43,160 nt of DNA from an uncultured Planctomycetota bacterium (GCA_903901045.1 CAIUPP010000009.1:1-43160), one strand, 5' to 3'. Positions 11,276 to 35,662 are shown, counted from the first letter of the stretch. A program made the numbers and translations. Notes: a model not told the origin generated them from the sequence alone.

Positions 11276-11339
11276 TTCTGAATGTCCCTCTCGGCGTCCG
11301 GTAAGACGGGTGACCGGACCCCGTTGGATTTCCACGCAC

Positions 11340-17599: not shown

Positions 17600-17617
17600 T
17601 ACACACCGGGCTTCCGA

Positions 17618-17650
17618 TACGTAAGTAAGTAATAGGGACACTTCATGTCC
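17618..17650 (+). promoter_or_regulatory. Repeated 20-bp box plus hairpin, copy upstream of the early operon
   Basis: TACGTAAGTAAGTAATAGGG at 17618-17637 matches 35401-35420 at 19 of 20 positions. It runs into a small hairpin GGACA-CTTCA-TGTCC (17636-17650). The second copy has a different but still paired stem. The position upstream of the replication operon suggests a promoter or regulatory site; a REP-like mobile palindrome is the alternative. Confidence 0.5.
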
Positions 17651-17652
17651 TT

Positions 17653-17721
17653 CGTCCGGGTGGGATGGCGTAGCGCTGCCGGCCACGGCGCTCAGACTCC
17701 CCGCGCCCGCCCGGACGTTTT
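17653..17721 (+). terminator. Two-level stem-loop with T-tract before the replication operon
   Basis: A 12-bp outer stem (17653-17664 with 17706-17717, one G-T pair) encloses a 5-bp inner stem AGCGC/GCGCT (about 17672-17692) and is followed by TTTT. It could terminate sigma-gene transcription or act as an attenuator in the leader of the operon starting at 17752. Confidence 0.5.
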
Positions 17722-17751
17722 CGGTCATCGGTTCAGAAAGGAGAACACGGC

Positions 17752-18510
17752 TTGAAACTTATCGGACAGATTCACAGCGGGAAGCAGCCCGCCCCGCGCC
17801 GCATCATGCTGTACGGCACGCACGGCATCGGCAAATCCACCTGGGGCTCGATGGCGCCGAAATCCATCTTTGTCCAGACCGAGGATGGCCTGGGCGAGAT
17901 CGCCTGCGACAAATTCCCCCTGGCGAAATCCTTCAGCCAGGCCATGCAGGGACTATCGGACCTGTACACCGAGGAACACCCGTACCGCACAATCGTTGTT
18001 GACTCGCTCGACTGGCTCGAACGGCTCATCTGGGAAGAGGTCTGCCGCCAGAAGACCGTCGAGAGCATCGAGGACATCGGCTATGCCAAGGGATACGCCT
18101 TCGCCATCACGCAATGGCGGGAGTTTCTGACCGGCCTGGAGGCGCTGCGCTCGGACCGGGGGATGACTATCATCCTCATCGCCCACGCCAAGATCGAGAA
18201 GTTCGAGAACCCCGAGACAGAGAATTACGACCGCTACGTTCCGGGCATCCACAAACTGGCCAGCCACATCGTCCAGGAGTGGTGCGACGAGGTGCTCTTT
18301 GCGACCTACCGCGTCCACGTCAAACAGACCAAGGAGGGCTTCGACAAGAAGTCCAACAAGGGCGTCGGCACGGGCGAGCGCATCATTCACACCGCCGAAC
18401 GGCCGGCGCACGTGGCGAAGAACCGGCTGAACCTCCCCGAGGATCTCCCCCTGGACTGGAACGCCTATGCGCAGTTCCTGGGCGATGGGAGCGCAACGCC
18501 GTCGAATTAG
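17752..18510 (+). CDS. RecA/Sak4-like phage ATPase (AAA_24 type)
   Basis: The TTG start at 17752 has AAAGGAG eight bases upstream; 252 residues. Walker A is GTHGIGKST (residues 22-30) and a Walker B-like strand is RTIVVDSLDWLE (~79-90). IILIAHAKIEKFENPE matches the sensor strand followed by the His-rich loop of phage AAA_24/Sak4-like proteins. In this family the protein binds single-stranded DNA and supports annealing or recombination together with a single-strand binding protein; the DUF669 gene 35 bp downstream is the usual partner. First gene of the replication operon. High confidence in the family, moderate in the exact role. Confidence 0.82.
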   Translation: MKLIGQIHSGKQPAPRRIMLYGTHGIGKSTWGSMAPKSIFVQTEDGLGEIACDKFPLAKSFSQAMQGLSDLYTEEHPYRTIVVDSLDWLERLIWEEVCRQKTVESIEDIGYAKGYAFAITQWREFLTGLEALRSDRGMTIILIAHAKIEKFENPETENYDRYVPGIHKLASHIVQEWCDEVLFATYRVHVKQTKEGFDKKSNKGVGTGERIIHTAERPAHVAKNRLNLPEDLPLDWNAYAQFLGDGSATPSN

Positions 18511-18544
18511 TCCCCATTTCAATTCCATTCACTAGGAGAATATC

Positions 18545-19000
18545 GTGACGAACCTTAACGGCTTTGACGCGAACACCGTCGAACCGACGACCGAATTCGA
18601 TCCCATCCCCGCGGCGAAGTACCTGGCCGTCATCACCGGAAGCGAAATGAAGCCGACGAAGACCGGCAAGGGGAGTTTCCTCGAGCTTCAGTTCCAGATC
18701 ATCGAGGGCCCATGCGCCAACCGCTGCATCTGGGCGCGCCTGAACCTGGACAACCCCAACCCCACCGCGGTCCAGATCGCGCGTGGCCAGCTCTCGGCGC
18801 TCTGCCGCGCTGTGGGGGTCATGACGCCGAAGGACTCCTGTGAGCTGCACAACCTCCCGCTCGTGATCGACGTGAAGTGCAAGAAGAGGACGGACAACGA
18901 CGAAATCACGAACGAGATCAAGGGATTCTCAAAGAAGGAATCGCCGACCGCTCCGGCTCGTCCAGCAGCCGCCTCAACCCCGCCCTGGGCGAGACGGTGA
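18545..19000 (+). CDS. DUF669-family phage protein (SSB-like)
   Basis: The 151-residue product starts at GTG 18545 after TAGGAGA. PIPAAKYLAVITGSEMKPTK, the strand GSFLELQFQIIEG and CIWARLNLDNPNPTAVQIA are the characteristic pattern of DUF669, an OB-fold-like family found next to recombination ATPases in phages and thought to bind single-stranded DNA. The C-terminal tail is Ala/Pro-rich and lacks the acidic tip of bacterial SSB. The stop TGA overlaps the GTG of the following RusA-like gene. Confidence 0.8.
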   Translation: MTNLNGFDANTVEPTTEFDPIPAAKYLAVITGSEMKPTKTGKGSFLELQFQIIEGPCANRCIWARLNLDNPNPTAVQIARGQLSALCRAVGVMTPKDSCELHNLPLVIDVKCKKRTDNDEITNEIKGFSKKESPTAPARPAAASTPPWARR

Positions 19001-19398
19001 GCGACGCGAGCGCCGTGATCGAACTGGCACTGCCGTACCCGCCGAGCCTGAATCACTATTACCGCATCTGGAGGGGCCGCACGCTGATCAGCCGTGAGGG
19101 GCGCGCCTACCGCGAGGCGGTTTGCGCGCTCTTGGCCCGGCGCGGCGTGCGGCCCATGCTCGGTCCGCTGGCCATGGCCGTCGAAGCCTATCCCCCGGAC
19201 AAGCGGCGTCGGGACCTGGACAACCTGCAAAAGAGCCTGTGGGATTCGCTGCAGCATGCCGGAGCGTATGGGGATGACGGCCAGATTGACCTGCACCTCA
19301 CACGCCGGCATGCGCCGGTCCAGGGCGGTGCGGTCGTGGTCCGAATCGAGGCGCTGCCGCTGCACTGCTGCCCACTGTGCGGCCACAGCCTTACTTAA
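18997..19398 (+). CDS. RusA-family Holliday junction resolvase
   Basis: I chose GTG 18997, which overlaps the stop of the DUF669 gene (GTGA); 133 residues, the usual RusA size. The N-terminal PPSLNHYYR motif, the acidic residues in RRRDLDNLQKSLWD (D73, D75) and the pair in GDDGQI (D93, D94) match the metal-binding catalytic residues of RusA. The family cleaves four-way junctions during phage recombination. The C-terminal LPLHCCPLCGHSLT contains C-C-x-x-C, slightly longer than typical RusA. GTG 19015 is an alternative start. Confidence 0.85.
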   Translation: MSDASAVIELALPYPPSLNHYYRIWRGRTLISREGRAYREAVCALLARRGVRPMLGPLAMAVEAYPPDKRRRDLDNLQKSLWDSLQHAGAYGDDGQIDLHLTRRHAPVQGGAVVVRIEALPLHCCPLCGHSLT

Positions 19399-19420
19399 GA
19401 GACATTCGGGGAATCGTGGG

Positions 19421-19540
19421 ATGGAAAGACGCCTGACGCTTGGCAGCCTGTTCCGCGGCATCGGCGGATTCGACCGGGGCTTCGAGGACGCCGGACGACG
19501 CATCGTGAAGGCGCTGCGCCGGGAGGAGACCCCGGATTGA
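19421..19540 (+). pseudogene. Stub of a C5-cytosine DNA methyltransferase
   Basis: The ATG opens 39 codons reading MERRLTLGSLFRGIGGFDRG then FEDAGRRIVKALRREETPD. The segment LTLGSLF-x-GIGGFD-x-GFE-x-AG is motif I of C5 methyltransferases, where S-adenosylmethionine binds. All later motifs, including the catalytic PC motif, are absent. After RRIV the sequence jumps to an unrelated-looking tail. The stop TGA overlaps the TTG start of the helicase gene, so the stub keeps translational coupling. An internal deletion of a formerly full gene is the simplest explanation. Confidence 0.72.
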
Positions 19541-21261
19541 CGCAGCCGATCTTCTCACCTCCCAAGGCTCCAGCGCTCGTCCTTCGTCCCTATCAGCAGG
19601 AAGCCGTCGACGCCGTCTATCGGCACCTGAGGGAACGGGACGACAACCCCTGCATCGTGATCCCGACAGCTGGGGGAAAAACTCCCATAGCAGCGACGAT
19701 CTGCAAGGACGCGGTCGGTGCGTGGAAGGGGCGCGTCCTGATCCTGGCGCACGTCAAAGAGCTTCTGGAGCAGGCCGCAGAGAAGCTCGACCGCATCGCG
19801 CCTGATCTGCGCGTCGGCATCCATTCCGCCGGACTGCGCCGGCGCGATACGGAGCACCCCGTCATCATCGCCGGAATCCAGAGCGTCTACAGACGGGCCT
19901 GCGACCTGGGGCCGTTCGATCTCGTGCTGGTGGATGAAGCTCACATGATTGCGCCGGAGGGTGACGGGATGTACCGGCAGTTCCTGGCGGACATGAAAGT
20001 GATCAACCCCCGCATGCGTGTCATCGGGCTGACGGCCACGCCGTTCCGGATGAAGTCGGGGATGATCTGCGCGCCGGAGAACTTCCTCAACTCCATCTGC
20101 TATGAGGTCGGTGTCCGGGAGCTCATCCGCGACGGCTACCTCTGCAGGCTGATCACGAAATCCGGCTGCCAGAAGCCCGATACGTCGGAATTGCGCCTGC
20201 GGGCCGGAGAGTTCGTCGCCAGCGAGACGGAAGCGTTGATGGACCAGGACGCCTTGGTGGAGTCCGCTTGCGCGGAGATCGCCGAATACACCAGGGACCG
20301 CAACTCATGCCTTGTATTCGTCAGCGGCGTGAAACACGGCCAGCACGTAACCGACGTCCTGCACCGCAGGACCGGCGTCGAGGTGGGTGAGGTGTATGGA
20401 AACACGCTCGCCTTTGAGCGTACTCGGATGCTCGACGATTTCCGCAGCGGGAAGCTGAAGTACCTCGTCAACGTCAACGTGCTCACCACGGGCTTCGACG
20501 CCCCCAACATCGACTGCGTCGCCATGCTTCGGCCCACCATGTCGCCTGGGCTTTTCTGTCAGTGCTGCGGGAGGGGATTCCGCCTCCACCCCGGCAAGGA
20601 GAACTGTCTCATCCTGGACTTCGGGGGCAACGTCCTTCGCCACGGGCCTGTGGATCAGGTCATGGCGAAAACCTCGCGCGGCGGCAACGGCCCGACGCCG
20701 GTGAAAGAATGCCCGGAGTGCCATTCCGTCATCGCCGCCGGCTATGCCAACTGCCCGGATTGCGGGCACGAATTTCCACCGCCGGAGAAGAAGAAACATG
20801 AGGCGGAGGCGACCACCGCAGGCGTCCTGTCGGGTGAAGTGACGATGACGGAGTACCCGGTCGAGGCGGTGCTCTACGGCGTCCATGCCAAGCGTGGCGC
20901 GCCGGCGGACCATCCCCGGACGTTGCGCGTGGACTACCAGGTGGGGCTGAACGACTTCATCTCGGAATGGGTCTGCCCGGAGCATACCGGCTTTGCGCGA
21001 TGGAAGTTCGAGAAGTGGTGGAGAGCGCGTTCGGACGTGCCGCCGCCGGTCAGAGTTGAAGAGGCCGCGGCGCTGGCTCAGGAGGGTGCATTGGCCCCCG
21101 CGACGGCGATCACCGTCCGGCACGTTGCCGGCGAGAAACATGATCAGGTCGCCGGTTACGTCCTGGGCGGGAAACCGCGCATGGCGGGGTGGGACGAGGC
21201 GCCGATCCAGAAGCCTGCCGGCAACTCCCTGGGCGTGGCGGACGAGGAGATTCCGTTTTGA
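19537..21261 (+). CDS. Superfamily 2 DEAH-box phage helicase with zinc ribbon
   Basis: The 574-residue product starts at TTG 19537, overlapping the preceding stop. Walker A is PTAGGKT (43-49), motif II is DEAH (133-136), motif III GLTATPFR, and the second RecA lobe carries TTGFDAPNIDCV and QCCGRGFR. A CPEC...CPDC zinc ribbon lies around residues 392-409, followed by ~160 residues with a C-terminal domain seen in phage helicases (GFARWKFEKWW). It belongs to the phage group of UvsW/restriction-type helicases and acts in DNA replication or recombination. Its stop overlaps the next TTG start. Confidence 0.88.
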   Translation: MTQPIFSPPKAPALVLRPYQQEAVDAVYRHLRERDDNPCIVIPTAGGKTPIAATICKDAVGAWKGRVLILAHVKELLEQAAEKLDRIAPDLRVGIHSAGLRRRDTEHPVIIAGIQSVYRRACDLGPFDLVLVDEAHMIAPEGDGMYRQFLADMKVINPRMRVIGLTATPFRMKSGMICAPENFLNSICYEVGVRELIRDGYLCRLITKSGCQKPDTSELRLRAGEFVASETEALMDQDALVESACAEIAEYTRDRNSCLVFVSGVKHGQHVTDVLHRRTGVEVGEVYGNTLAFERTRMLDDFRSGKLKYLVNVNVLTTGFDAPNIDCVAMLRPTMSPGLFCQCCGRGFRLHPGKENCLILDFGGNVLRHGPVDQVMAKTSRGGNGPTPVKECPECHSVIAAGYANCPDCGHEFPPPEKKKHEAEATTAGVLSGEVTMTEYPVEAVLYGVHAKRGAPADHPRTLRVDYQVGLNDFISEWVCPEHTGFARWKFEKWWRARSDVPPPVRVEEAAALAQEGALAPATAITVRHVAGEKHDQVAGYVLGGKPRMAGWDEAPIQKPAGNSLGVADEEIPF

Positions 21262-21482
21262 CAGACAACGTCAACCACCCCAGCCACTACACCAGCCATC
21301 CCAGCGGCATCGAGTGCATTCAGGTAACCGAGTGCATGAACTTCTGCATCGGGAACGCCGTGAAATATTTATGGCGCGCTGGCCTCAAAGGTGACGCTCT
21401 GGAAGACCTGAGGAAAGCCCGCTGGTACGTCGACCGTGAAATCAAACGCCTCGAAACCGCCCAATCACGGGAGGCGCGGTGA
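21258..21482 (+). CDS. DUF3310 small phage protein
   Basis: TTG 21258 overlaps the helicase stop (TTGA); 74 residues. NHPSHYTSHPSGIECIQVTE, NFCIGNAVKYLWRAGLKG and DLRKARWYVDREI are the signature of DUF3310, annotated in phages as nucleotide kinase-like although no kinase site is visible here. Probably an accessory to phage nucleotide metabolism; the true role is unknown. The stop overlaps the GTG of the primase gene. Confidence 0.85.
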   Translation: MTDNVNHPSHYTSHPSGIECIQVTECMNFCIGNAVKYLWRAGLKGDALEDLRKARWYVDREIKRLETAQSREAR

Positions 21483-23659: not shown

Positions 23660-23867
23660 GGGTGAAAAGTGAAACGTGAGGCTGAAATCCGGGTCGCAGG
23701 GGGTGAAAGGAGAGAAACGAGGGTGAAAGGTGAAATGCGGTTTAACCTATATAGAATATATATATCTCTTCTCCTTTCTCTCCTTTCACCCCTATCCCCC
23801 CTCACGATTTTAAGTGTGCTTTTTTGTGTGTATACGCGAGGGGGGGTGAAAGGTGGAAACGTGGGCT
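23660..23867. other. Candidate phage replication origin (repeats, palindrome, AT-rich core)
   Basis: Heptamers of the form GTGAAAN repeat at 23662, 23669, 23676 (GTGAGGC), 23703, 23723, 23730 and 23846, with an inverted CTTTCAC at 23783. An 18-bp perfect inverted repeat (GGGGTGAAAGGAGAGAAA at 23700-23717, complement at 23775-23792) flanks a 57-bp spacer containing a purely AT tract (about 23750-23765). The strand is purine-rich left of the core and pyrimidine-rich right of it. No gene fits the interval 23660-23939. The location next to the primase supports an origin; a large terminator hairpin is the alternative. Confidence 0.55.
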
Positions 23868-23939
23868 GATGCCAGAGCTGCGGCGGGCCGTTCGGCAGGG
23901 CATACCCCCACGCGCGCACAGGGCGCGCGTGTTGAACCG

Positions 23940-24353
23940 TCAGGCAGGTTCCATCTTGAGGAACTCTTCCGGCGTCACAATGGGGATCGGTTCGTTGGGA
24001 AAGTGCCGCGCGTTCCTGGTGAGGATGAAGTCGGCCCCGGCATGGTGCGCGGAGAAGAACTGAATGCCGTCCTCAAAGTCCGAGAACTCCGAGTCAATCG
24101 CACGCTGGATGATCTGTTCGTCCAGAGCCACGACGTGAAATATGTCCCGCAGCAACTTCAGCCCGTCGTGGGCCGTCGGGCGGTTTGCGACGCGCCGCAG
24201 CACGTAGTGGACGTTGTTGAAGCTGATCGCGGAAATGTATCCGTCGAGCGTCCCATGTTCCACGCGGGACCAGACCTCCGACGCCGCGACGCAGTGAGGC
24301 TCGCGCCGGCCCAGCACGTCCAGGAGCACGTTCGTGTCAAGGAACACTTTCAT
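23940..24353 (-). CDS. PIN-domain toxin (VapC-like)
   Basis: The 137-residue product begins MKVFLDTNVLLDVLG, with the first PIN aspartate at residue 6. Acidic residues in DSEFSDFEDGIQFFSAHHAG and the ADFILTRNARHF strand complete the PIN fold metal site. PIN toxins are ribonucleases, often cutting tRNA or rRNA. It overlaps the upstream antitoxin gene by 4 bp, the standard toxin-antitoxin layout. It reads against the phage operons and lies just beyond the origin-like region. Confidence 0.85.
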   Translation of the reverse strand: MKVFLDTNVLLDVLGRREPHCVAASEVWSRVEHGTLDGYISAISFNNVHYVLRRVANRPTAHDGLKLLRDIFHVVALDEQIIQRAIDSEFSDFEDGIQFFSAHHAGADFILTRNARHFPNEPIPIVTPEEFLKMEPA

Positions 24354-24613
24354 TTCTTGAATCCATACTTCTCAAGCAGGGATTCTTCCAGAAGCTCCCG
24401 GTCCGACTTCCCCGGCGGCAGCTTCACCAGGCCGAGCGCCTGGCGCGTGAGCGGGCCGAGTTCAGCAGTGGACTTCGTTTCCGCGCGCTTGGACATCGCC
24501 AGGACCAGCCGGCTGAACATGGCCGAGATGCTCGTCTTGTTCTTGCGCGCCAGTTGCCGGGCCTTCCGGACCACTTTCTCGTCGGCGCTGAGCGTGAGTT
24601 TTACGGTTGCCAT
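24350..24613 (-). CDS. DUF6364-type ribbon-helix-helix antitoxin
   Basis: The 87-residue product (MATVKLTLSADEKVVRKARQ, then LARKNKTSISAMFSRLVLAM) has the strand-helix-helix pattern of ribbon-helix-helix antitoxins annotated DUF6364. The C-terminal half (LPPGKSDRELLEESLLEKYG) resembles toxin-wrapping tails. It precedes the PIN gene with a 4-bp overlap and should neutralise it and repress the shared promoter through the paired palindromes at 24627-24657. Confidence 0.82.
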   Translation of the reverse strand: MATVKLTLSADEKVVRKARQLARKNKTSISAMFSRLVLAMSKRAETKSTAELGPLTRQALGLVKLPPGKSDRELLEESLLEKYGFKK

Positions 24614-24626
24614 AGAGGCTCCTCCT

Positions 24627-24657
24627 ATACGTATGCCAGCACTAATAGTATACGTAT
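24627..24657 (-). promoter_or_regulatory. Paired ATACGTAT operator of the PIN module
   Basis: ATACGTAT, an 8-bp perfect palindrome, occurs at 24627-24634 and 24650-24657, 23 bp apart, directly upstream of the antitoxin start (24613). Two turns of spacing on one DNA face is typical for ribbon-helix-helix autoregulators. The rest of the 24614-24947 interval is GC-rich and shows no gene. Confidence 0.65.
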
Positions 24658-24947
24658 CGTCCGTTTCTTGTCAAGAGCCGGATCGCGTGGGCTGTTCGGC
24701 CCCCACGCTCGCACAGGCGCGTTCGGGGCGCAACGGGCGCGTCACTGCGGGCTCAGGCGCGTGTTTGGCAAAAGGACGCGACGTGCGCGCGCTGTGCGCG
24801 TCGTGGGCGACGCACCAAGTGCCGTATCTCCGAGCAAATCGCTTAGGTACTACCTTGTCATAAGTCCTTTCAAGGCATCGGGAAGCTGTAGCCAATGAGG
24901 AGTGTCTTTCTTTTACGTGTGCATGACCTTGTTTGGAGGAGACGAAG

Positions 24948-26369
24948 ATGCAAATCGAGATGCGCAAAGTCAGTGAAATCAAGCCGTATGAGAAGAACCC
25001 GCGCCTGAACGATGGTGCCGTGGACGCGGTCGCGCGCAGCATTCAGGAGTTCGGATTCAGGCAGCCCATCGTGGTGGACGCCGACGGCGTCATCATCTGC
25101 GGCCACACCCGTTGGAAGGCAGCGCAGAAACTCGGCCTTGAAGAAGTGCCGGTCCACGTGGCCCGCGACATGGCGCCGGAGAAGGTCCGGGCGTACCGGA
25201 TCGCTGACAACAAGCTGGCAGAGATGGCGACGTGGGACATGGACCTGCTGCCGATCGAATTGACGGAACTGCAGGGGATGGACGTGGATCTGTCGCTATT
25301 GGGATTCGATGCCGATGCCTTGGCGAAGATCCTTAACCCGGACGGGACGGACGGTCAGACCGACCCGGATTCCGTGCCCGAACCAGGGGACGCGGCGGTC
25401 TCCAAGACGGGCGAGATTTATCAATTGGGCAACCACCGGCTGATGTGCGGGGACTCCGGAAGTGTGGCCGACCTTGACCTGCTCCTGGGCGGGCAGCCGG
25501 TCCATTTGGCAAACACGGACCCGCCGTACAACGTCAAAGTGGAACCGCGCAGCAACAACGCCATCGCGGCGGGGTTGTCGTCGTTTGGTGAAAACGCTTC
25601 TGCCAAGCGCCGTCACCTTTTCAAGACGATGCGCGACCCGGAGCATGAGGAGGGCGCTCCAGGACTGCGTCACCACCAGGCATTTGACCTGGCGCGCGGC
25701 AAGAGCAAGGCCCACGCCACCACGAAGAAGATGCGGCCCAAGGATCGGCCCCTGGAGAACGACTTCGTCTCCGACGAGCAGTTCGACCGGCTCCTTGATG
25801 CGTGGTTCGGCAACATCGCCCGAGTGCTCCTGCCGGGGCGCGGGTTCTACATTTGGGGCGGCTATGCCAACCTCGGCAACTACCCGCCGTTCTTGAAGAA
25901 ACATGGCCTTTACTTCAGCCAGGGGATCGTCTGGGACAAACTGCACCCGGTCCTCACCCGGAAAGATTTCATGGGCGCTTTTGAGATCTGCTTCTACGGG
26001 TGGAAGGAAGGGGCGGGCCACAAGTATTACGGCCCCAACAACGCCACGGACCTCTGGCACGTGAAGAAGGTCAACCCCGCCAGCATGATTCACCTGACCG
26101 AGAAGGCTGTGGAACTTGCCGTGCGCGCCATTCAATACTCGTCACTGATCGGCGAGAACGTCCTGGACCTCTTCGGCGGGTCGGGTTCGACCTTAATAGG
26201 CTGCGAGCAGACGGGCCGGCATGCGTTCTTGATGGAACTGGACACACTCTACTGCGACGTGATCCGCAAACGATGGGCCGAATTTGCTCATGGAGAAGGC
26301 TGCAATTGGCAAGAACTGACGCCGGTCTGTGGCGAGTCACAGGCCGTCGCCGCAGGGAGTGCCGAATGA
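24948..26369 (+). CDS. ParB-nuclease-like domain fused to DNA N6/N4 methyltransferase
   Basis: ATG 24948 is preceded by GGAGGAG; 473 residues. Residues 1-~110 are a ParB-like domain (IKPYEKNPRLND, FGFRQPIVVD, GHTRWKAAQKLG at ~52, then RAYRIADNKLAE). After a linker, residues ~160-470 are a methyltransferase: NTDPPYN at ~188-194 is the catalytic motif IV, and VLDLFGGSGSTLIG near 405 is the AdoMet site, so the motif order is catalytic-first. Such fusions are common in phages and modify phage DNA, probably against restriction. The central insert rich in K/R (RGKSKAHATTKKMRPK) may contact DNA. It overlaps the radical SAM gene by 4 bp. Confidence 0.88.
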   Translation: MQIEMRKVSEIKPYEKNPRLNDGAVDAVARSIQEFGFRQPIVVDADGVIICGHTRWKAAQKLGLEEVPVHVARDMAPEKVRAYRIADNKLAEMATWDMDLLPIELTELQGMDVDLSLLGFDADALAKILNPDGTDGQTDPDSVPEPGDAAVSKTGEIYQLGNHRLMCGDSGSVADLDLLLGGQPVHLANTDPPYNVKVEPRSNNAIAAGLSSFGENASAKRRHLFKTMRDPEHEEGAPGLRHHQAFDLARGKSKAHATTKKMRPKDRPLENDFVSDEQFDRLLDAWFGNIARVLLPGRGFYIWGGYANLGNYPPFLKKHGLYFSQGIVWDKLHPVLTRKDFMGAFEICFYGWKEGAGHKYYGPNNATDLWHVKKVNPASMIHLTEKAVELAVRAIQYSSLIGENVLDLFGGSGSTLIGCEQTGRHAFLMELDTLYCDVIRKRWAEFAHGEGCNWQELTPVCGESQAVAAGSAE

Positions 26370-27229
26370 ACACCTGGCGCAAAGGGATAGCATCCTGGAA
26401 GTGCGGCGGCACATTGTACCTGAGCGTCCCGTTCACATGGCTGCTGCCGGAAGCGGAAGCGCTGGCCCTGCAGCACAAAGGCAAGGTCATCGCTGGGGGA
26501 CCGGCGGTGGCCTTGATGGGTGCGCCGTGGGCGGACGAGACCCCGGTGGAATGCCCGTTCGACGTACTTGGGATGCACAACCCCTGTGCCACGTTCACGA
26601 CGCGCGGCTGTCCCAACCGTTGTGCATTCTGCGCCGTGCCCCGGATCGAGGGAGAGTTCCGGGAGCTGCCGTCATGGAAGCCCGCACCGCTGGTCTGCGA
26701 CAACAACCTCCTCGCGGCGAGCAAACGGCACTTTCGGCGGGTCATTAAGTCGCTGACGACATTTCCTGAAGTGGACTTCAATCAAGGATTGGACGCTCGG
26801 CTGTTCACCTGCTGGCACGCCGACCAGATCGCCCGGCTGCGGCGGGCCAAGGTGCGGTTCAGCCTGGACCACGTAGGCATGATCGGCGTGGTGGACGACG
26901 CCATTGCCACGGCGCGGGTGGCGGGGCTGAAACACTTCGGCGTGTATGTCCTGACTGGGTTCCAGGACACGCCGGAGGATGCATTCATGCGGTTGGAGCA
27001 CGTCCGGTCGCTCGGCATCCGACCCAACCCGATGCGCTACCAGCCGTTGGACACGCTGGAGCGCGATTCCTACGTCGCCCCGGGCTGGACCGACTTCGAG
27101 TTGAAGCGGATGACACGCTACTACAGTCGGCTGCGCTGGCTGGAACACATTCCGTACGCGGACTATCAACCTTCTGATCAGCCGCTATTTGCCAGCCTGC
27201 GAGGCCCGGCAACAACGGAGGTGCAATGA
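26366..27229 (+). CDS. Phage radical SAM protein
   Basis: ATG 26366 overlaps the methyltransferase stop (ATGA); 287 residues. The cluster-binding motif CPNRCAFC (C82, C86, C89) follows TTRG, a fully conserved C-x3-C-x2-C. FNQGLDARL, FSLDHVGMIG, VYVLTGFQDTPEDAF and RPNPMRYQPLD fit the strands of a small radical SAM barrel, and the ~75-residue N-terminus (SVPFTWLLPEAEAL, GGPAVALMG) resembles the preceding flavodoxin-like half of B12-binding radical SAM proteins. Coupled translation with the methyltransferase suggests a shared job, perhaps hypermodification of nucleic acid; substrate unknown. Confidence 0.78.
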   Translation: MNTWRKGIASWKCGGTLYLSVPFTWLLPEAEALALQHKGKVIAGGPAVALMGAPWADETPVECPFDVLGMHNPCATFTTRGCPNRCAFCAVPRIEGEFRELPSWKPAPLVCDNNLLAASKRHFRRVIKSLTTFPEVDFNQGLDARLFTCWHADQIARLRRAKVRFSLDHVGMIGVVDDAIATARVAGLKHFGVYVLTGFQDTPEDAFMRLEHVRSLGIRPNPMRYQPLDTLERDSYVAPGWTDFELKRMTRYYSRLRWLEHIPYADYQPSDQPLFASLRGPATTEVQ

Positions 27230-27231
27230 AC

Positions 27232-27618
27232 TCATTCCTGAGCAATCGAACGCAGGAAGGCAGCCGCGTCGCCCTTTCCGGCCCGTCCCGACGCGACGCG
27301 CAACGCGATGTCGACCAGGCCGTCTTCGTCCGCTTCCACCGACACGCCGTTCATCGCCAGGAAGATGATCGCGGCGGCCGCCCCCGTTCGCTTGTTGCCG
27401 TCGATGAACGGGTGGTTCTGGACGATGTGGTAGAGATAGGCGGCGGCCATCTCGAACAGATCCGTGTGCAGGAAATGACCGCCGAAGGATGCCTGCGGCA
27501 TGGCAATGGCGGAATGAAGCATACCGGCATCCCGTATGCCCTCTTCTCCGCCGTACTGCTCAATCATGCTGCGATGAATCCGGAGGACGCGCTCGATGTC
27601 GAGAAACAAAGGAGCCAT
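27232..27618 (-). CDS. doc: Doc/Fic-family toxin (death on curing)
   Basis: The 128-residue protein carries HPFIDGNKRTG (residues 69-79), the Doc variant of the Fic motif (H-x-F-x-D-G-N-K) that phosphorylates elongation factor EF-Tu in the family type member. FLDIERVLRIHRSMIEQYGG and GIRDAGMLHSAI are the typical N-terminal Doc helices. It starts 3 bp after the AbrB-type antitoxin stop and ends 2 bp from the stop of the convergent radical SAM gene. Confidence 0.88.
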   Translation of the reverse strand: MAPLFLDIERVLRIHRSMIEQYGGEEGIRDAGMLHSAIAMPQASFGGHFLHTDLFEMAAAYLYHIVQNHPFIDGNKRTGAAAAIIFLAMNGVSVEADEDGLVDIALRVASGRAGKGDAAAFLRSIAQE

Positions 27619-27621
27619 GGC

Positions 27622-27849
27622 TCACTCCGCCAGTTTCTTCAAGGCGCGTCCGAAACGCGTGTGGACCATCGCCAGCGCGTCCTTGAACTTCTTCTCTTCC
27701 CCGGGGTTTCGCACCGGGCTGAGGAGAAGCGACTGGCCGTCGGTCACGACCTCGAATGGGGTCTGCGGAGTGGCGTGGAGAAGCTCCAGGATCGGCTTGT
27801 CGATGACCAGAGCGTAACTGTTCCCGTGCTTGCACAGCGTCTTGCGCAT
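27622..27849 (-). CDS. AbrB/MazE-like antitoxin of the Doc module
   Basis: The 75-residue protein reads MRKTLCKHGNSYALVIDKPI then LELLHATPQTPFEVVTDGQS and LLLSPVR, the swapped-hairpin AbrB/SpoVT DNA-binding pattern. The C-terminal helix (KFKDALAMVHTRFGRALKKL) would mask the Doc active site. Phd is the better known partner of Doc, but AbrB-type partners are common. A 26-bp imperfect palindrome lies 22 bp upstream of its ATG. Confidence 0.82.
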   Translation of the reverse strand: MRKTLCKHGNSYALVIDKPILELLHATPQTPFEVVTDGQSLLLSPVRNPGEEKKFKDALAMVHTRFGRALKKLAE

Positions 27850-27871
27850 GGCTCATTCCTCCAAGAAAGGT

Positions 27872-27897
27872 TCTACCATAGTATATACGATGATAGA
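27872..27897 (-). promoter_or_regulatory. Palindromic operator of the Doc module
   Basis: A 26-bp imperfect palindrome, centred on GTATATAC, with outer arms TCTA/TAGA and inner CAT/ATG; two base pairs are mismatched. It lies just upstream of the antitoxin start and probably binds the AbrB-type dimer for autorepression. Confidence 0.65.
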
Positions 27898-27914
27898 CCC
27901 GCTGGCAAGAGAGA

Positions 27915-27938
27915 ACGCCCCCGCAACGGCGGGGGCGT
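27915..27938 (-). terminator. Terminator of the minus-strand small-gene cassette
   Basis: ACGCCCCCGC and GCGGGGGCGT form a perfect 10-bp stem with a 4-nt loop, 25 bp beyond the stop of the gene at 27964-28608. Read on the minus strand it is followed by TCTCTCTTG, a moderately T-rich tail. Confidence 0.6.
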
Positions 27939-27963
27939 CCAGAGGCAGATGGGCGTGATGAGG

Positions 27964-28608
27964 CTACTTGGACAGTTCAAAATATCCGCGCTGAACTTTC
28001 TTGAAGCGCGCCTGGCCCCCTTTCTTCTGAATTTCGCGCAGGATCGAGGCGTACAGCGTGGCCGCCGGCGTCAGGCCCTTCCCGAACTCATAGAGATGCG
28101 AACTGCGCATCTCGTTGATGATCTGCGGGCAGTTCATCGGGACCTTCATCTTCGTCAGGACGGCCACGGCGGCGTCCAGAAGGCCCGTCTTCTTGGAAGC
28201 GCGTTCCGCCGTCGTTTTGGTGGTCTTGGTCGTCGTGGACTTGGCGGCGGCCGTCGGAGCGATCTCAGCGCCCTTCGCGACTGGTTTGCCTGGGGCCGGG
28301 CTGAGGCGCGCCGGGTCGGCGATCTTGATGGTCTTGTTCGTCGCCACCGTCTTCAGGGTGATCGCCCCGACTGCCGGGGCCGAGACCGCCGTCACGCGCA
28401 CGTCGTTGCGTCCGATCTTGCACAAGTACTCCTGCCCGATCTTGACTTCGCTCTTCTTCACGGCACACTCCTCCTCGTCATTGGGGTTCGCGGGGACCGA
28501 GCGCGCCGCCGCCGCTTCTGCGGCAGCCCTTCGAGCGCGCATGGCCATCTCGAACCGATCCGCCGGCAGCGTCGCAAAATACGCCGGCACGTTCAGCAGT
28601 GTTTCCAC
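27964..28608 (-). CDS. HARE-HTH domain protein
   Basis: The 214-residue product has three parts. Residues 50-~100 (VKKSEVKIGQEYLCKIG, then VRVTAVS) are a small beta-barrel-like domain. A low-complexity Ala/Lys/Thr linker follows (AKSTTTKTTKTTAERASKKT). Residues ~140-214 form a HARE-HTH winged helix (LLDAAVAVLTKMKVPMNCPQ then IINEMRSSHLYEFG and FKKVQRGYFEL), a DNA-binding domain found with chromatin and restriction proteins. A GTG at 28461 with GAGGAG upstream is a good alternative start and would fit related phage proteins better. It is the last gene of the minus-strand cassette; role unknown. Confidence 0.7.
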   Translation of the reverse strand: METLLNVPAYFATLPADRFEMAMRARRAAAEAAAARSVPANPNDEEECAVKKSEVKIGQEYLCKIGRNDVRVTAVSAPAVGAITLKTVATNKTIKIADPARLSPAPGKPVAKGAEIAPTAAAKSTTTKTTKTTAERASKKTGLLDAAVAVLTKMKVPMNCPQIINEMRSSHLYEFGKGLTPAATLYASILREIQKKGGQARFKKVQRGYFELSK

Positions 28609-28623
28609 CAGCCTTCGCTCCTT

Positions 28624-28923
28624 TCAGTTGTTACGACCGTCTACCCACGCCACTACGTATGCTTTGTGCCTGGGGTTAACCGTGCGGTACTCGACTACGT
28701 CGCCCCGAGATGGCTGGTCGCCGTCGAGGGACACCACGTTGGAGAGCAGGATGCCGATGCCCGCGTTATGGTCGCCGTCGGCGATGAGCACCCAGACCCC
28801 CTCGCTCCCTCCCGCCGTGTCTCCAGGACGTTCGAAGAGCAACACCTTTACGATGCGGTCGAGGCCGAGGTTGTTCATGCGCTTCGCGATCTGCTTCTTC
28901 GTCATGTGCGGCCACACTTTCAT
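28624..28923 (-). CDS. Hypothetical protein in minus-strand cassette
   Basis: Ninety-nine residues, MKVWPHMTKKQIAKRMNNLG with a Lys-rich amphipathic N-terminus, then beta-rich sequence (RIVKVLLFER, EGVWVLIADGDH, GDVVEYRTVN, KAYVVAWVDG). I do not recognise a family. Spacing is 15 bp to the downstream HARE-HTH gene and 3 bp from the upstream gene, so it is co-transcribed. Soluble and probably small-fold. Confidence 0.6.
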   Translation of the reverse strand: MKVWPHMTKKQIAKRMNNLGLDRIVKVLLFERPGDTAGGSEGVWVLIADGDHNAGIGILLSNVVSLDGDQPSRGDVVEYRTVNPRHKAYVVAWVDGRNN

Positions 28924-28926
28924 CGT

Positions 28927-29154
28927 TCACCTGCCTTTCTTGGCGGGGATCAGTTGACGGACCTCGTAGTAGTGGAAGGGCCTGCCGGTCCTGGTATAGA
29001 AGCCCGTGATCTCCACGAGGTTCACCAGCGCGCCCTTGGCGCGCAACCGGCGCAGGCCGGTGAGGGCGTCCTTCTCGCTCTTCCTCTTCAGGACGGTCTT
29101 CACCCCGGAGTTGTCCGTTCTGCGCTGCCCATTCCTGACGGCGTTTGCTCTCAT
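28927..29154 (-). CDS. Hypothetical small basic protein
   Basis: Seventy-five residues, strongly basic (MRANAVRNGQRRTDNSGVKT, KSEKDALTGLRRLRAKG) with a beta-hairpin-like end (NLVEITGFYTRTGRPFHYYE then VRQLIPAKKGR). No known family was recognised; the charge suggests nucleic acid contact. It is separated by only 3 bp from each neighbouring stop/start, which supports it as a real cistron. Confidence 0.55.
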   Translation of the reverse strand: MRANAVRNGQRRTDNSGVKTVLKRKSEKDALTGLRRLRAKGALVNLVEITGFYTRTGRPFHYYEVRQLIPAKKGR

Positions 29155-29157
29155 GAC

Positions 29158-29406
29158 TTACTTCCTCCCCCGGCGCACTGCCGCCAGGCGCTTCTCGATA
29201 AACGCCTCGTCCTGCCGGGCGAGGAAGGCCAGCGTCTCGACAAGACCTTCACGAACGTGCGCCATCGAACCCACGTGCGCCCAGTTCACCCCGTCGTTCC
29301 GGGCATGCTCTGCGGCGTGCGTCACCTCCTCACGGAGAAGGTCAAGCAAGCCTTCGATGTCACCCCGGTTCCTCTGATATGCCTCGTTTGCCGTCCGCTT
29401 CGCCAT
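29158..29406 (-). CDS. Hypothetical helical protein
   Basis: Eighty-two residues, almost entirely helical: DIEGLLDLLREEVTHAAEHA, NWAHVGSMAHVREGLVETLA, FLARQDEAFIEKRLAAVRRG. The NW-x-x-V-G-x-x-x-H-V-R-E pattern recurs in uncharacterised small proteins of planctomycete phages as far as I recall. Ribosome site GGAAA precedes the ATG. Function unknown. Confidence 0.6.
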   Translation of the reverse strand: MAKRTANEAYQRNRGDIEGLLDLLREEVTHAAEHARNDGVNWAHVGSMAHVREGLVETLAFLARQDEAFIEKRLAAVRRGRK

Positions 29407-29430
29407 CGTCGTTTCCTTTCGGTTGGTCCT

Positions 29431-29781
29431 TCAAGCGTCCAGCGCGATCGGCTGGCCCTGCTCGTCGCGGACGATGATGCCCTGTCGTTGCGCGAGGCGG
29501 ATCGAGTCCTCGCTCATCATGTTGCCGAACCCCTCTTCCTCGACCGTGACGGCAACATCCGCCAGGGTGGTCACGTCCACCTTCTTCTCGGCGCTATTGA
29601 ACGTCGTCTTCGTCCTGTAGTTGTACGGATCGGCGTAACGCGCATCCCTGAATGCCTGCGCCACTCGCTCGGCCGCTTCCGGACTCAGGTAGCGGCCCAC
29701 GACGCTGGACATGTTGCTCTCGCCGGAGTTGTTGACCACAACCTTCCACGTCTTCACCCAGAGGCGTTCCTTCTTTGCCAT
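29431..29781 (-). CDS. Hypothetical protein in minus-strand cassette
   Basis: One hundred sixteen residues: MAKKERLWVKTWKVVVNNSG, a predicted helix YLSPEAAERVAQAFRDARYA, then TLADVAVTVEEEG and RQGIIVRDEQGQPIALDA. Alpha/beta composition with no membrane segment. No family recognised. GGGAAGG lies at good spacing before the ATG, and it stands 12 bp from the upstream cistron. Confidence 0.6.
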   Translation of the reverse strand: MAKKERLWVKTWKVVVNNSGESNMSSVVGRYLSPEAAERVAQAFRDARYADPYNYRTKTTFNSAEKKVDVTTLADVAVTVEEEGFGNMMSEDSIRLAQRQGIIVRDEQGQPIALDA

Positions 29782-29793
29782 AATCCTTCCCTT

Positions 29794-30054
29794 TCATTCA
29801 GGAACCGAAACCCAGACCTCGCGGCCGTCGCGCGTGACGTGCCGGTACGTCACCACCCAGTAGTTGCGCCCGGCCATGTCGGCCAGCGCGTCCATCGTCC
29901 TCGCCGTGGCGATCACCCCTTTGAGGGAGCGCATGGCGTAGAGGCTTCTCATCCGCGCCGATCCCCTGGCGATGGGCCTATAGATGCGCACCTCCAGGCC
30001 CAGGTATCCCCAAGGCTCCCTCTGGTACTTCCCATCCACGTGCAGGTAGTTCAT
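29794..30054 (-). CDS. Hypothetical protein in minus-strand cassette
   Basis: Eighty-six residues: MNYLHVDGKYQREPWGYLGL, EVRIYRPIARGSARMRSLYA, a helix TMDALADMAG and a final beta pair YWVVTYRHVTRDGREVWVSV. No family recognised. AAAGGAAA precedes the ATG, and 12 bp separate it from both neighbours, the same spacing as the other members of this operon. Confidence 0.58.
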   Translation of the reverse strand: MNYLHVDGKYQREPWGYLGLEVRIYRPIARGSARMRSLYAMRSLKGVIATARTMDALADMAGRNYWVVTYRHVTRDGREVWVSVPE

Positions 30055-30066
30055 CGCGGTTTCCTT

Positions 30067-30315
30067 TCAGAGGCATGCGGTCAGTGTGATCTTGCCCTGG
30101 CGCGCCATCGAGTGTTCGCCGTTGGTCGGATGCCAGCCGACGTAGGCATAACGGCGACCCACCTCAGCCAGCCTTCCGCCGCGAAGCGTCAGAAGGTTCT
30201 CGTCAACGTACACGGTCACGCGGCCATACCTGCGCGGGAGCCTCGCGCCCACCGGAAGGCTGTAGACCTTCCCATTCTTCCTGCGTTCCAGCCATCGTTT
30301 CTGCGCTGCGTTCAT
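30067..30315 (-). CDS. Hypothetical basic protein, first gene of the cassette
   Basis: I chose the ATG at 30315 (82 residues) because AAAGGA precedes it and upstream codons look non-coding. The protein reads MNAAQKRWLERRKNGKVYSL, VYVDENLLTLRGGRLAEVG and RRYAYVGWHPTNGEHSMARQ. It is basic and beta-rich with no recognised domain. As the first cistron of the divergent minus-strand operon it faces the plus-strand packaging genes across a 167-bp intergenic region (30316-30482), which must hold promoters for both directions; no clear consensus was found there. Confidence 0.58.
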   Translation of the reverse strand: MNAAQKRWLERRKNGKVYSLPVGARLPRRYGRVTVYVDENLLTLRGGRLAEVGRRYAYVGWHPTNGEHSMARQGKITLTACL

Positions 30316-30482
30316 TGCGTTGTCCTTTCTGTAACATGCTGTCCAGCAATGCATTACACACATGAGGCCATGATTCCGCAGGAACATCCACTGAATTCCT
30401 GGAAATTCCGCATGCCCCATGCTTCGCAGTCATTGGGAGTTATGACTTCGGTGAAAGATTCCCTGAAAGGGGGCCTGCGTCC

Positions 30483-30680
30483 ATGACCGAGAAACTGCAA
30501 CCCACGTCCCTGAGCATGGAGCATGCGGCGCGGTTATTGAGCGCCGTCGGCGGCAGGACCGTCACGGCGGAGATGATCGCACGCGACACTGACAGCGGCG
30601 CGCCCGTTAATTCCGACGGCACGCTCAACCTGGTCCATTACGCCGCATGGCTGGCGAAAGCGCATGCCCATGGCAGTTGA
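30483..30680 (+). CDS. Small helix-turn-helix-like protein upstream of terminase
   Basis: Sixty-five residues, MTEKLQPTSLSMEHAARLLS then AEMIARDTDSGAPVNSDGTL and NLVHYAAWLAKAH. The spacing of its helices and the ending D-G-T-L-N-L-V-x-Y-x-A-W-L match the N-terminal ~60 residues of the terminase encoded next (LVRLLNSTPLGAVI ... DGKTVDLFRYVAWL). It overlaps the terminase start by 17 bp. It may be a DNA-recognition subunit, i.e. a minimal small terminase; this is an inference. Confidence 0.6.
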   Translation: MTEKLQPTSLSMEHAARLLSAVGGRTVTAEMIARDTDSGAPVNSDGTLNLVHYAAWLAKAHAHGS

Positions 30681-32934: not shown

Positions 32935-32940
32935 GCCACT

Positions 32941-33007
32941 CGTAAGCGTCTTTCTAGCGGGACCGGCATTTGTAATCGTTTTTCTAGAGCCGTAACGGTT
33001 TTTCTTG
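32941..33007 (+). repeat. Three imperfect 17-bp direct repeats after the terminase
   Basis: CGTAAGCGTCTTTCTAG (32941-32957), TGTAATCGTTTTTCTAG (32971-32987) and CGTAACGGTTTTTCTTG (32991-33007) share Y-G-T-A-A-N-S-G-T-Y-T-T-T-C-T-W-G. They start 6 bp after the terminase stop. The interval 32935-33282 has no credible gene; it holds these repeats and the palindrome at 33108. Confidence 0.7.
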
Positions 33008-33107
33008 CCGCAGGCCAGGATTGCGCGCAAGAGATGGCGGGGGCAATCGGGCTCTCGATCGGGGGGAGGCTTTCCAATGGCGCCCGGCCTTGACGACGGG
33101 TGGCGGT

Positions 33108-33155
33108 ATGATAGAAACCTCAATACTTATGCACAAGTATATAGGATTCTATCAT
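33108..33155. repeat. 48-bp near-perfect palindrome
   Basis: Two 21-nt arms (33108-33128 and 33135-33155) pair at 18 of 21 positions around the 6-nt centre ATGCAC. The outer 9 bp (ATGATAGAA / TTCTATCAT) and the inner 6 bp (ATACTT / AAGTAT) are perfect. The element is much richer in A/T than its surroundings. It could be an operator, a recombination site or a cruciform; no T-tract supports a terminator. Confidence 0.8.
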
Positions 33156-33282
33156 GGCCTCGAAGGCGCCACACATCTTGACGAGCCGCTTCAGGGGGTA
33201 TGGCTGCCCCGGGCGCAGGAGAAAATCATACGCATGTGCAGTCCGACACCAACAGCAGCACCAGCAGCATGATGACCGCGTC

Positions 33283-34263
33283 CTACGACTTCTTCTTTCT
33301 CTCTTCATGCTGCTTGGCGTTTAGCGCCTTCCACTGAATAAGCGGATGGGTCTTGATACGTTCGACCATCGCCTTGTCGGACGTCAGGGTGGATGGCTCG
33401 ATCTCCCCGTGGTCCAGGAGGCGGTCGAGGAACTCCCTCTCTCCCGCGGACAAGGGCAGCACGACGTCGAGCTTCCGCCGGCACTCCTCTTGAAGCTGCG
33501 CCGCCCATGCCTTCGGCTTGGCGGCCTTTGCGAGGAAGTCCTTCCGCACCACCGGCACGAGCTGGTTCTCGATCTCGCGAAGGTCAAATGCGACATCCTC
33601 GGGGCTGACCGTCCTCCAGTCCTTGCGGTTCATCGCGCCGTACAGGACAAACCCCAGCCGAAGCTTCCGAGCGTCCAGCTTCCCCTTCGTCAGGAGCAAG
33701 TGCGCGTCAAACAGGTCGCGGCTTGCGTGGCGCGCCAGCAGGGCGGCCAGCTTGCCCGCGGCCAGTTCATGGGCGTCCATGACGGGAATGCCTCTCGCGC
33801 TGTAAGAACCGATGGCGTGGGAATCTCGAACCGTCACGGGCCACAGGGGGACGCGGAACATGAAATTGAGGTCCAGTTCCAGATTGCCGCTTTCGCCGAT
33901 CGCGCTGTCGTAGCGAAGCCGCCACTTGCCTCCGGCGTGGTCGCCCGGCTGCCGAGTGACGTTCAGCCCTTCGCGCGAACAGACCGCCCCTACCGCCTGC
34001 TCGACGAGGGGCCGTTCCGCATTCATCTCTTCCAGCCCCGCGGCCCCGACGTAGTTCAGGTCGACGTCGACGGACAACCGAGGCAGGTTGAACAGGAAGA
34101 GGTTGAGCGCCGTCCCGCCTTTCAGCGCCAGCCGCCCTTTGAGAAACGGGTGGGACTGGAATCCCTCCAGCAGGTTCAACAGGTGGATGACCTTCTCCAG
34201 GACCTCGGGCCGGAAGCCTGTGGCTTCAGCCTCCGCCAGCAACTTCTCGCGAGAGACTTTCAC
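33283..34263 (-). CDS. abiEii: AbiEii nucleotidyltransferase toxin
   Basis: I chose GTG 34263, which overlaps the antitoxin stop (GTGA) and has GGGAGGA upstream; 326 residues. LALKGGTALNLFLFNLPRLS followed by VDVDLN carries the nucleotidyltransferase core (G49-G50 and the metal pair D66/D68). PVMDAHELAAGKLAALLARH and ASRDLFDAHLLL are the family's helical motif with R-D-L-x-D. AbiEii-type toxins modify tRNA or other RNA with nucleotides and give abortive infection. It reads against the phage structural genes. An ATG at 34278 is the alternative start. Confidence 0.88.
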   Translation of the reverse strand: MKVSREKLLAEAEATGFRPEVLEKVIHLLNLLEGFQSHPFLKGRLALKGGTALNLFLFNLPRLSVDVDLNYVGAAGLEEMNAERPLVEQAVGAVCSREGLNVTRQPGDHAGGKWRLRYDSAIGESGNLELDLNFMFRVPLWPVTVRDSHAIGSYSARGIPVMDAHELAAGKLAALLARHASRDLFDAHLLLTKGKLDARKLRLGFVLYGAMNRKDWRTVSPEDVAFDLREIENQLVPVVRKDFLAKAAKPKAWAAQLQEECRRKLDVVLPLSAGEREFLDRLLDHGEIEPSTLTSDKAMVERIKTHPLIQWKALNAKQHEERKKKS

Positions 34264-35066
34264 GATGGTTCCTCCCATGAACGCCCGGCCACGTACGCCG
34301 GCACGACAAGGTTCCATTCTTTCACCAGGCGTCCCGTCGTTCGTTCCCCGCGGTCGAGGTAATGAGGCTGTTTCGGACGACGCTGCTTGAGCGGCTGGAG
34401 ATGCTCCTCCTTGACCATCAGCCTCTCGCGATGCTGGTCGAGGAAATACCCCACCTTGGCCGCCGTCGTCGCGTTCTTCAGGAGCAGCGCATATTCCACG
34501 ACCTGGCCCAGGTCGAAGAACTCCACGGACTCCAAAGAGCGCCAGATTTCTTCCCATCCTCCGCCGAGGAGCGGCCTGTCCATCACGTCAACGAGCGAGC
34601 GCTCTAGGGTGGTCACGCGGACCGTCAGACCGGACCGGTCCAGCGTCATGACGCCGAATCCCTCTTTGTGTTTTCTGCGGAGCGCTAGGGGATGTCGGAC
34701 ACTCTCGAAATGATACGAGCGAAAGGTCGAAGGCCTCATCCTCCGGCTGGTCAGGCAGTAGAACCGCTCGAAGATGGAATGGGCTTTGCCGTGCGCCTCC
34801 AGCGCCGTGTGATAGGCCAGCACGGCGTCGTCGGTCATCTTCGCGGCCAACAGGTAGGGGTCCACAGGGCAGGTTTCCGGCGAAGCGCCTGCCGGGACCG
34901 AAAGATAGAGGCCCCGGCGGACTCGATCCAGGTGTCCCTTGCGCACGTGGTAGGCGAGCAGGGTCTCCCGCGTTCTGGCATTGCGGGAATGCGCCGACGC
35001 CAGACTGGCGCGAAGGTCGGCCTGGGTCAACACCGGCCGCCGCAGGAATAGTTGTTGAAGGCCCAT
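34260..35066 (-). CDS. abiEi: AbiEi-family antitoxin and transcriptional repressor
   Basis: ATG 35066 gives 268 residues starting MGLQQLFLRRPVLTQADLRA. The N-terminal ~80 residues form a winged helix (TRETLLAYHVRKGHLDRVRR followed by GLYLSVP), and the rest is the COG5340/AbiEi C-terminal domain (AAKMTDDAVLAYHTALEAHG, TLERSLVDVM). In characterised AbiE systems this protein binds inverted repeats in its promoter and antagonises the toxin. Toxin and antitoxin genes overlap by 4 bp. Two tandem promoter/operator copies lie upstream. Confidence 0.87.
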   Translation of the reverse strand: MGLQQLFLRRPVLTQADLRASLASAHSRNARTRETLLAYHVRKGHLDRVRRGLYLSVPAGASPETCPVDPYLLAAKMTDDAVLAYHTALEAHGKAHSIFERFYCLTSRRMRPSTFRSYHFESVRHPLALRRKHKEGFGVMTLDRSGLTVRVTTLERSLVDVMDRPLLGGGWEEIWRSLESVEFFDLGQVVEYALLLKNATTAAKVGYFLDQHRERLMVKEEHLQPLKQRRPKQPHYLDRGERTTGRLVKEWNLVVPAYVAGRSWEEPS

Positions 35067-35105
35067 GACTGGCTCACTTGACAAAAACGCACGTAACACA
35101 CCATT

Positions 35106-35134
35106 AGATTACGTGTATCGCGCTTATATGTCAA
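35106..35134 (-). promoter_or_regulatory. Promoter A of the abiE operon
   Basis: Read on the minus strand: TTGACA (35134-35129), a 17-bp spacer and TAATCT (35111-35106), a near-consensus sigma-70 promoter about 40 bp before the antitoxin ATG. It lies inside one copy of a 29-bp repeat (35108-35136). Confidence 0.72.
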
Positions 35135-35189
35135 GTAACAGCGCTTGTCAAAGCAAAATACTTGACATAGTATGCCAATACACTCAATG

Positions 35190-35218
35190 ACATTACGTGT
35201 AGCGCGTTCTTATGTCAA
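35190..35218 (-). promoter_or_regulatory. Promoter B of the abiE operon (second repeat copy)
   Basis: Minus strand TTGACA (35218-35213), 17-bp spacer, TAATGT (35195-35190). The 29-bp repeat 35192-35220 matches 35108-35136 at 25 of 29 positions, 84 bp apart. TGTCAAGT or its complement also occurs at 35076 and 35160, so several repressor half-sites are present. Confidence 0.65.
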
Positions 35219-35400
35219 GTGGCGACGTGTGCTCCCGTTAACCCACGCGCTGATCTGGAATGACCTCGGCGCGCGGCAGGAAGTCCCCTCAGGGCAAGAA
35301 GGTCTTCTCGCTCCTGACACCACGCTTCAAGACTTCCTGTTGCGCAGATTGAACAATCTGACCGTTCCTGGCTTTTCAAGAGAACACCTACCCTCGCCGT

Positions 35401-35432
35401 TACGTAAGTAAGAAATAGGGGACGCGAGTCCC
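35401..35432 (+). promoter_or_regulatory. Repeated 20-bp box plus hairpin, copy upstream of the head/tail operon
   Basis: TACGTAAGTAAGAAATAGGG (35401-35420) followed by the hairpin GGGAC-GCGA-GTCCC (35419-35432). The hairpin sequence differs from the copy at 17618 but pairing is kept. It ends 29 bp before the GTG of the first late gene. The remaining interval 35221-35400 shows no gene. Confidence 0.5.
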
Positions 35433-35461: not shown

Positions 35462-35662
35462 GTGGCGAAGGAACTGAACGACGCGACGATCCGTGAGAGT
35501 GCCGCCGGCCCGGCTGAAGTGTCCGGCGATTCCGGGGGCATGAAGCAGCACCCGCTTAAGGACCAGACCGAGGCGGATCGGTATCTGTGCTCCAAAGCCG
35601 CCACTCGCCGTCCCAATCGCGGTCTCAACATCTCCAAATTCAGTCCACCGGGGGCGGCCTGA
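35462..35662 (+). CDS. Small phage protein preceding the portal
   Basis: Sixty-six residues from GTG 35462: GPAEVSGDSGGMKQHPLKDQ, then TEADRYLCSKAATRRPNRGL and SPPGAA. The pattern (A-S-G-D-x-G-x-x-x-Q-H-x-L-x-D-Q-x-x-A-D-R-Y-L) is one I associate with the small hypothetical gene right before lambda-type portals, in the position of the gpW-like head-tail protein. Its stop TGA overlaps the portal ATG (TGATG). Confidence 0.72.
   Translation: MAKELNDATIRESAAGPAEVSGDSGGMKQHPLKDQTEADRYLCSKAATRRPNRGLNISKFSPPGAA

Follow-up and report, generated by a model that had tools for sequence, protein, structure and literature searches.

What two nearly identical 20-bp boxes are doing in front of two separate gene sets of one phage is the question that this locus raises. 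The window, i.e., the whole stretch of DNA that was analysed, comprises 43,160 nucleotides and is the entire contig C9 of an uncultured Planctomycetota bacterium; a search for a terminal repeat in it found none. The box (TACGTAAGTAAGNAATAGGG) occurs twice, both times on the + strand, the copies being identical at 19 of 20 positions where shuffled sequences are expected to give none, and a 5-bp hairpin lies at each copy (Table 1). Box 1 lies 18 nt behind the stop codon of a sigma factor gene and precedes replication genes (Sak4-like, SSB, helicase and primase), and box 2 precedes genes for gpW-like, portal and head-protease proteins. The original prediction had described this arrangement, which holds in all these respects, and had proposed either a phage-specific promoter or RNA element, or a REP-type palindrome that moved in twice. 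Most probably, the boxes belong to phage promoters that are read by the host RNA polymerase together with the phage's own ECF-type sigma factor.

Table 1. Features of the window that bear on the two boxes.
Feature	Position	Strand	Remarks
Phage ECF-type sigma gene, 215 aa	16952-17599	+	PF04542 (Sigma70_r2), phrog_1740, TIGR02937
-35-like element, promoter 1	17598-17606	+	GATACACAC; overlaps the sigma stop codon; putative, assigned from the spacing
Box 1	17618-17637	+	-10 block ACGTAAGTAA (17619-17628) and start region TAATAGGG; transcription would start near 17634-17637
Hairpin at box 1	17636-17650	+	GGACA-CTTCA-TGTCC
Conserved structured leader	17654-17720	+	between promoter 1 and Sak4; common to L003, L006 and L010
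Sak4-like single-strand annealing ATPase	17752-18510	+	PF13479, E 6.5e-54; phrog_124; first gene behind promoter 1
AbiE type IV toxin-antitoxin cassette	33283-35099	-	AbiEii 33283-34557, AbiEi-like 34260-35099
-35-like element, promoter 2	35381-35389	+	AGAACACCT; top-scoring site in the window with the gpW-trained model
Box 2	35401-35420	+	-10 block ACGTAAGTAA (35402-35411) and start region AAATAGGG
Hairpin at box 2	35419-35432	+	GGGAC-GCGA-GTCCC
gpW-like head-tail joining protein	35462-35662	+	identified by its place in front of portal and its resemblance to relatives; opens the late operon
Portal protein, open reading frame	35587-37113	+	PF05136, E 2.4e-58; true start probably about 35662

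Relatives of the phage were collected through a Sak4 search, which gave 74 viral loci, and a portal search, which gave 80 viral loci and 80 genome loci, the latter mostly labelled Planctomycetota, with some Lentisphaerae, Verrucomicrobia and others. Prophages of this family were also seen in the cultured Rhodopirellula rubra CECT 8075 (L252). Versions of the box became visible once the regions behind the sigma gene and in front of gpW were lined up. An expectation-maximisation model trained only on the regions upstream of gpW in 58 non-redundant relatives, with the window excluded, is carried by about 38 of those 58 regions. It comprises a -35-like block CCGCCATTT (consensus CCGYCATTT), a 12-nt gap, a -10-like block GGGTAAGTAA, 1-2 nt and then CAGTAGA; the gap measures 12 nt in ~78% of the gpW sites and 11 nt in ~14%. 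These are two conserved blocks at near-fixed spacing, as in sigma-dependent promoters, and they stand upstream of genes in coding orientation, both before gpW and after the sigma gene. The promoter proposed originally thus recurs in relatives as a two-part motif at the same two gene positions.

The post-sigma regions had been held out from training, and the model sites found there begin no more than about 10 nt from the stop codon of the sigma gene. A score of at least 13 is reached by 12 of 32 non-redundant post-sigma regions versus 14 of 4440 random 200-nt windows (0.3%; p about 2e-22). Several sigma-bearing relatives (L003/L005, the L064 group, G030 and G027) have no family-like site after the sigma gene. 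Scans of whole contigs usually give two phage-specific sites, sometimes three or four, all on one strand. Among the phages with additional copies, record G020 (L192-L194) has sites at 834, 17510 and 27038, and the copy at 17510 also opens with a 6-bp hairpin (GGGCGC...GCGCCC).

In the window, site 2 has the best score (12.4; p 0.0025 against shuffles of the 250 nt ahead of gpW), a value that alone would be unremarkable in a 43-kb scan, and the post-sigma site 1 scores 6.5 (shuffle p 0.037). Both scores are only moderate because the -35 block of this phage has drifted to nACAC, and for the same reason it is the position, the -10 block and the start region, more than the -35, that place the window in the family. 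A matching ACAC motif is found at an equal distance upstream of both boxes, and the distance from the -35-like element of promoter 1 to its -10 block equals that at site 2 and in the relatives. The gpW-like protein has a counterpart before the portal in L078-L082, with 50-62% identity.

An exact search of IMG/VR for the box gave no match, since every phage has its own version of it. Among ten phages with both sites, mismatches in the -10 block average 0.60 of 10 within a phage versus 4.33 of 10 between phages (permutation p = 5e-6), and those in the -35 block 2.40 of 9 versus 4.36 of 9, while the first half of the spacer shows no within-phage match (4.00 of 6 versus 4.22 of 6). Phage G037 carries an unusual GGAAAGCTCT at both positions. 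A phage-specific promoter is therefore common to several operons of one phage, as is expected of a phage sigma factor with cognate promoters. Across 19 phages, promoter distance and sigma distance are correlated once Sak4 distance has been corrected for, both for the -35 (partial r 0.32, p 0.0016) and for the -10 (partial r 0.39, p 0.0008), bearing in mind that these comparisons cover 10-19 partly related phages and control only partly for shared ancestry. In the same 19 phages, -35 distance does not correlate with Sak4 distance (r 0.01). Judged from the sequences, this co-divergence is the pattern that a promoter co-evolving with its own sigma factor would show, and it adds to the case for the phage-specific promoter.

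The sigma factor itself scores 45.5 bits against TIGR02937 (sigma70-ECF), over a cut-off of 42.9, along residues 47-203 of 215. It has regions 2 and 4 only, without regions 1 or 3, which is the layout of the ECF type, and its family profile matches ECF sigma structures weakly. The region-4 helix reads KVQRLTV here and GVPRTTL in relatives; that this helix departs from the family, as does the -35 of the same phage, is suggestive only.

The model that would interconnect these elements is one in which the full promoter consists of a -35 (CCGYCATTT in the family, nACAC here), 12 nt, a -10 (GGGTAAGTAA in the family, ACGTAAGTAA here) and, after 1-2 nt, a start region (CAGTAGA in the family, AATAGG here), with transcription presumably starting near TAGGG. 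Promoter 1, just behind the sigma gene, would drive the Sak4-SSB-helicase-primase replication operon, and promoter 2 the gpW-portal-head operon, so that, once the sigma factor is made, replication and virion genes would be turned on through a signal private to the phage. It is conceivable, but unlikely, that the promoters are read instead by host sigma factors with the help of another DNA-binding activator of the phage. This would accommodate the sigma-bearing relatives that lack the motif after the sigma gene, as well as the gpW contigs in which no sigma gene was detected, though these are fragments. However, the motif adjoins the sigma gene in many lineages, the -35 and the -10 both co-diverge with sigma, and a sigma-70-type -35/-10 pair is absent at both boxes, all of which speaks against such an activator.

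The original prediction needs correction on two points. The box forms only the -10 and start half of the promoter, and the hairpin is no part of the promoter. Folding energy in 24-nt windows peaks at the presumed +1, with a mean of -6.4 compared to about -2 to -4.8 elsewhere downstream. In 49 sites, the window omitted, stem scores at +1 average 3.58 versus 2.22 (sd 0.31) in shuffles, 0 of 500 of which reach that mean, and stems of at least 5 bp are present at 33% of sites versus 13% in shuffles. About one in three late sites has a hairpin. In the GCGTAGATG class, 3 of the 6 pairs have changed on both sides, i.e., by compensatory changes within that clade, and 90.9% of cells pair, compared to 53% at most in slid controls.

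The excess of stems at +1 and the compensatory changes in one clade could also be taken to mean that the functional unit is an RNA element, such as a regulatory leader made of transcribed box and hairpin, rather than a DNA promoter. We consider this very improbable: at many post-sigma sites (e.g., L060, L049 and G023) the hairpin is missing and the start region runs directly into the ribosome-binding site, and any such RNA would begin downstream of the conserved -35, whose spacing is near-fixed. Because of these hairpin-free post-sigma sites, the hairpin is regarded as a real but optional element of the transcript 5' end, separate from the promoter. By analogy with what is generally known of 5' stem-loops, its most likely role would be in mRNA stabilisation. 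The Rfam search returned nothing at gathering score.

Two further readings are very improbable. As a contiguous element of ~20 bp ending in ATAGGG, the box resembles the -17 to +3 layout of promoters for T7-like single-subunit phage RNA polymerases, but the likeness is superficial and this reading was set aside because in relatives the -35 is a distinct block at near-fixed distance and the search turned up no such polymerase; PF00940 has no match in the genome, which counts for little as control genomes lack a match too, and the gene adjoining the box encodes a phage sigma factor. Equally improbable is a REP-type palindrome or other mobile element inserted twice, to which the hairpin at both copies might point: the hairpin sequences differ between the copies, the 4.77-Mb genome holds only these two, both in this contig, with none elsewhere at up to three mismatches, and in many phages the diverged motif stands at the same two gene positions, so that neither the dispersed copies expected of such an element nor the scattered host copies that would have spoken against a promoter are seen. 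The idea of an attachment or boundary site for inserted segments arose from the lower-GC insertion that precedes box 2, and was dropped because relatives lacking the AbiE insert have the motif in the same place. Promoters read by the phage's own sigma factor thus remain the preferred reading.

Among annotated phages, the only significant relatives of the sigma factor are in records of the Wolbachia phage WO. In MN180251 the sigma gene is followed by an AAA_24 gene, and a box composed of GCGGACGAATT, 10-11 nt and CGTACATATATATT is located at the sigma/AAA_24 junction, before the operon with methylase/ParB and terminase, and before a DUF4815 gene. The sequence CGTACATATATAT is present at the WO sigma gene and again ahead of the methylase-terminase operon. 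In WOVitA1, whose annotation lists gwv_1123 as a sigma factor, two sites carry a variant peculiar to that phage (GGACGAATT and CCGTGTATATAT). Exact scanning of IMG/VR with the WO box gave no match. WO (gwv_1123) resembles this phage in having a related sigma gene adjoining AAA_24, with a phage-specific box there and before other modules, and differs from it in the box sequence, which is AT-rich. According to a review, it is undetermined what the sigma factors of Wolbachia target (PMC7397232), and a Cappable-seq study of Wolbachia reports sigma-70-like motifs only and no lytic cycle (PMC12558409). As a separate observation, a fused ParB_N/N6-N4 methylase at 24933-26369 of the window has a counterpart at 28518-29744 of WO MN180251 (L299), which belongs to the late operon following the WO box.

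Phage sigma factors with promoters of their own are a known kind of regulator. Xpf (positive control factor) switches on the late operon of the Bacillus subtilis prophage PBSX. It is a sigma-2/sigma-4 (Group IV, ECF-like) factor that has been linked to the control of PBSX (PMC10141391). Like the sigma factor described here, Xpf is ECF-like and (pro)phage-encoded; in the present phage, by contrast, a promoter is also found beside the sigma gene itself, before the replication operon, hosts and sequence differ, and the function is predicted. T4 and SPO1 use many promoters together with helper proteins. Their sigma factors, gp55 in T4 and gp28/gp34 in SPO1, are essential and control middle or late genes (PMC9429907). 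Here, on the other hand, a phage usually has two to four sites, and their layout is two-part and ECF-like.

The present family is a new and widespread case of this kind, and its record of sigma-promoter co-divergence is unusually clear. The papers searched on phage ECF sigma factors and PVC phages contain no description of the system, nor was a description of late-gene control in these phages found in them. The paired layout with what looks like a phage-specific 'password' recurs in many phages of Planctomycetota-like bacteria and in the Wolbachia phage. More tentatively, and with somewhat more doubt than confidence, one switch could be common to tailed phages of Planctomycetota, Verrucomicrobia and Lentisphaerae and to Wolbachia WO, in which an ECF-type sigma encoded before Sak4 and a promoter password co-evolving with it turn on the replication and virion modules; as the password would differ between phages, co-resident prophages would not fire each other's late genes. 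The family provides a concrete set of promoters with a likely cognate sigma factor for a large group of mostly uncultured phages, and the extension to WO puts forward candidates for what the small extra sigma factors of Wolbachia target (PMC7397232). In addition, natural changes in sigma specificity could be studied with the many matched pairs of sigma factor and promoter.

Several other features of the window deserve mention. The leader between promoter 1 and Sak4 has a long outer stem of changing sequence and a constant core (GGRTGGCGTA ... GGACTCCC); it has no significant match in Rfam and is possibly an undescribed RNA element. The AbiE cassette between the terminase gene and box 2/gpW is present only in this phage among the few compared, and inverted and direct repeats at about 35080-35220 look like its operator. 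On the minus strand, an operon-like run of about ten small genes (27232-30628) includes a Fic-domain protein (27232-27618) and a HARE-HTH protein (27964-28608). A 1086-aa frame at 27226-30486, considered as a polymerase, was rejected, as it has no family match and looks antisense to this run. Also on the minus strand, a PIN-domain protein beside a DUF6364/ribbon-helix-helix-like protein (23940-24613) is likely a toxin-antitoxin pair. Finally, two paralogous beta-helix proteins of ~1050 aa (1554-4673 and 11310-14474), whose DNA blocks are 86-88% identical and lie 9.8 kb apart, flank a 1798-aa laminin-G/repeat protein, and are possibly tail-fibre or surface-binding proteins.
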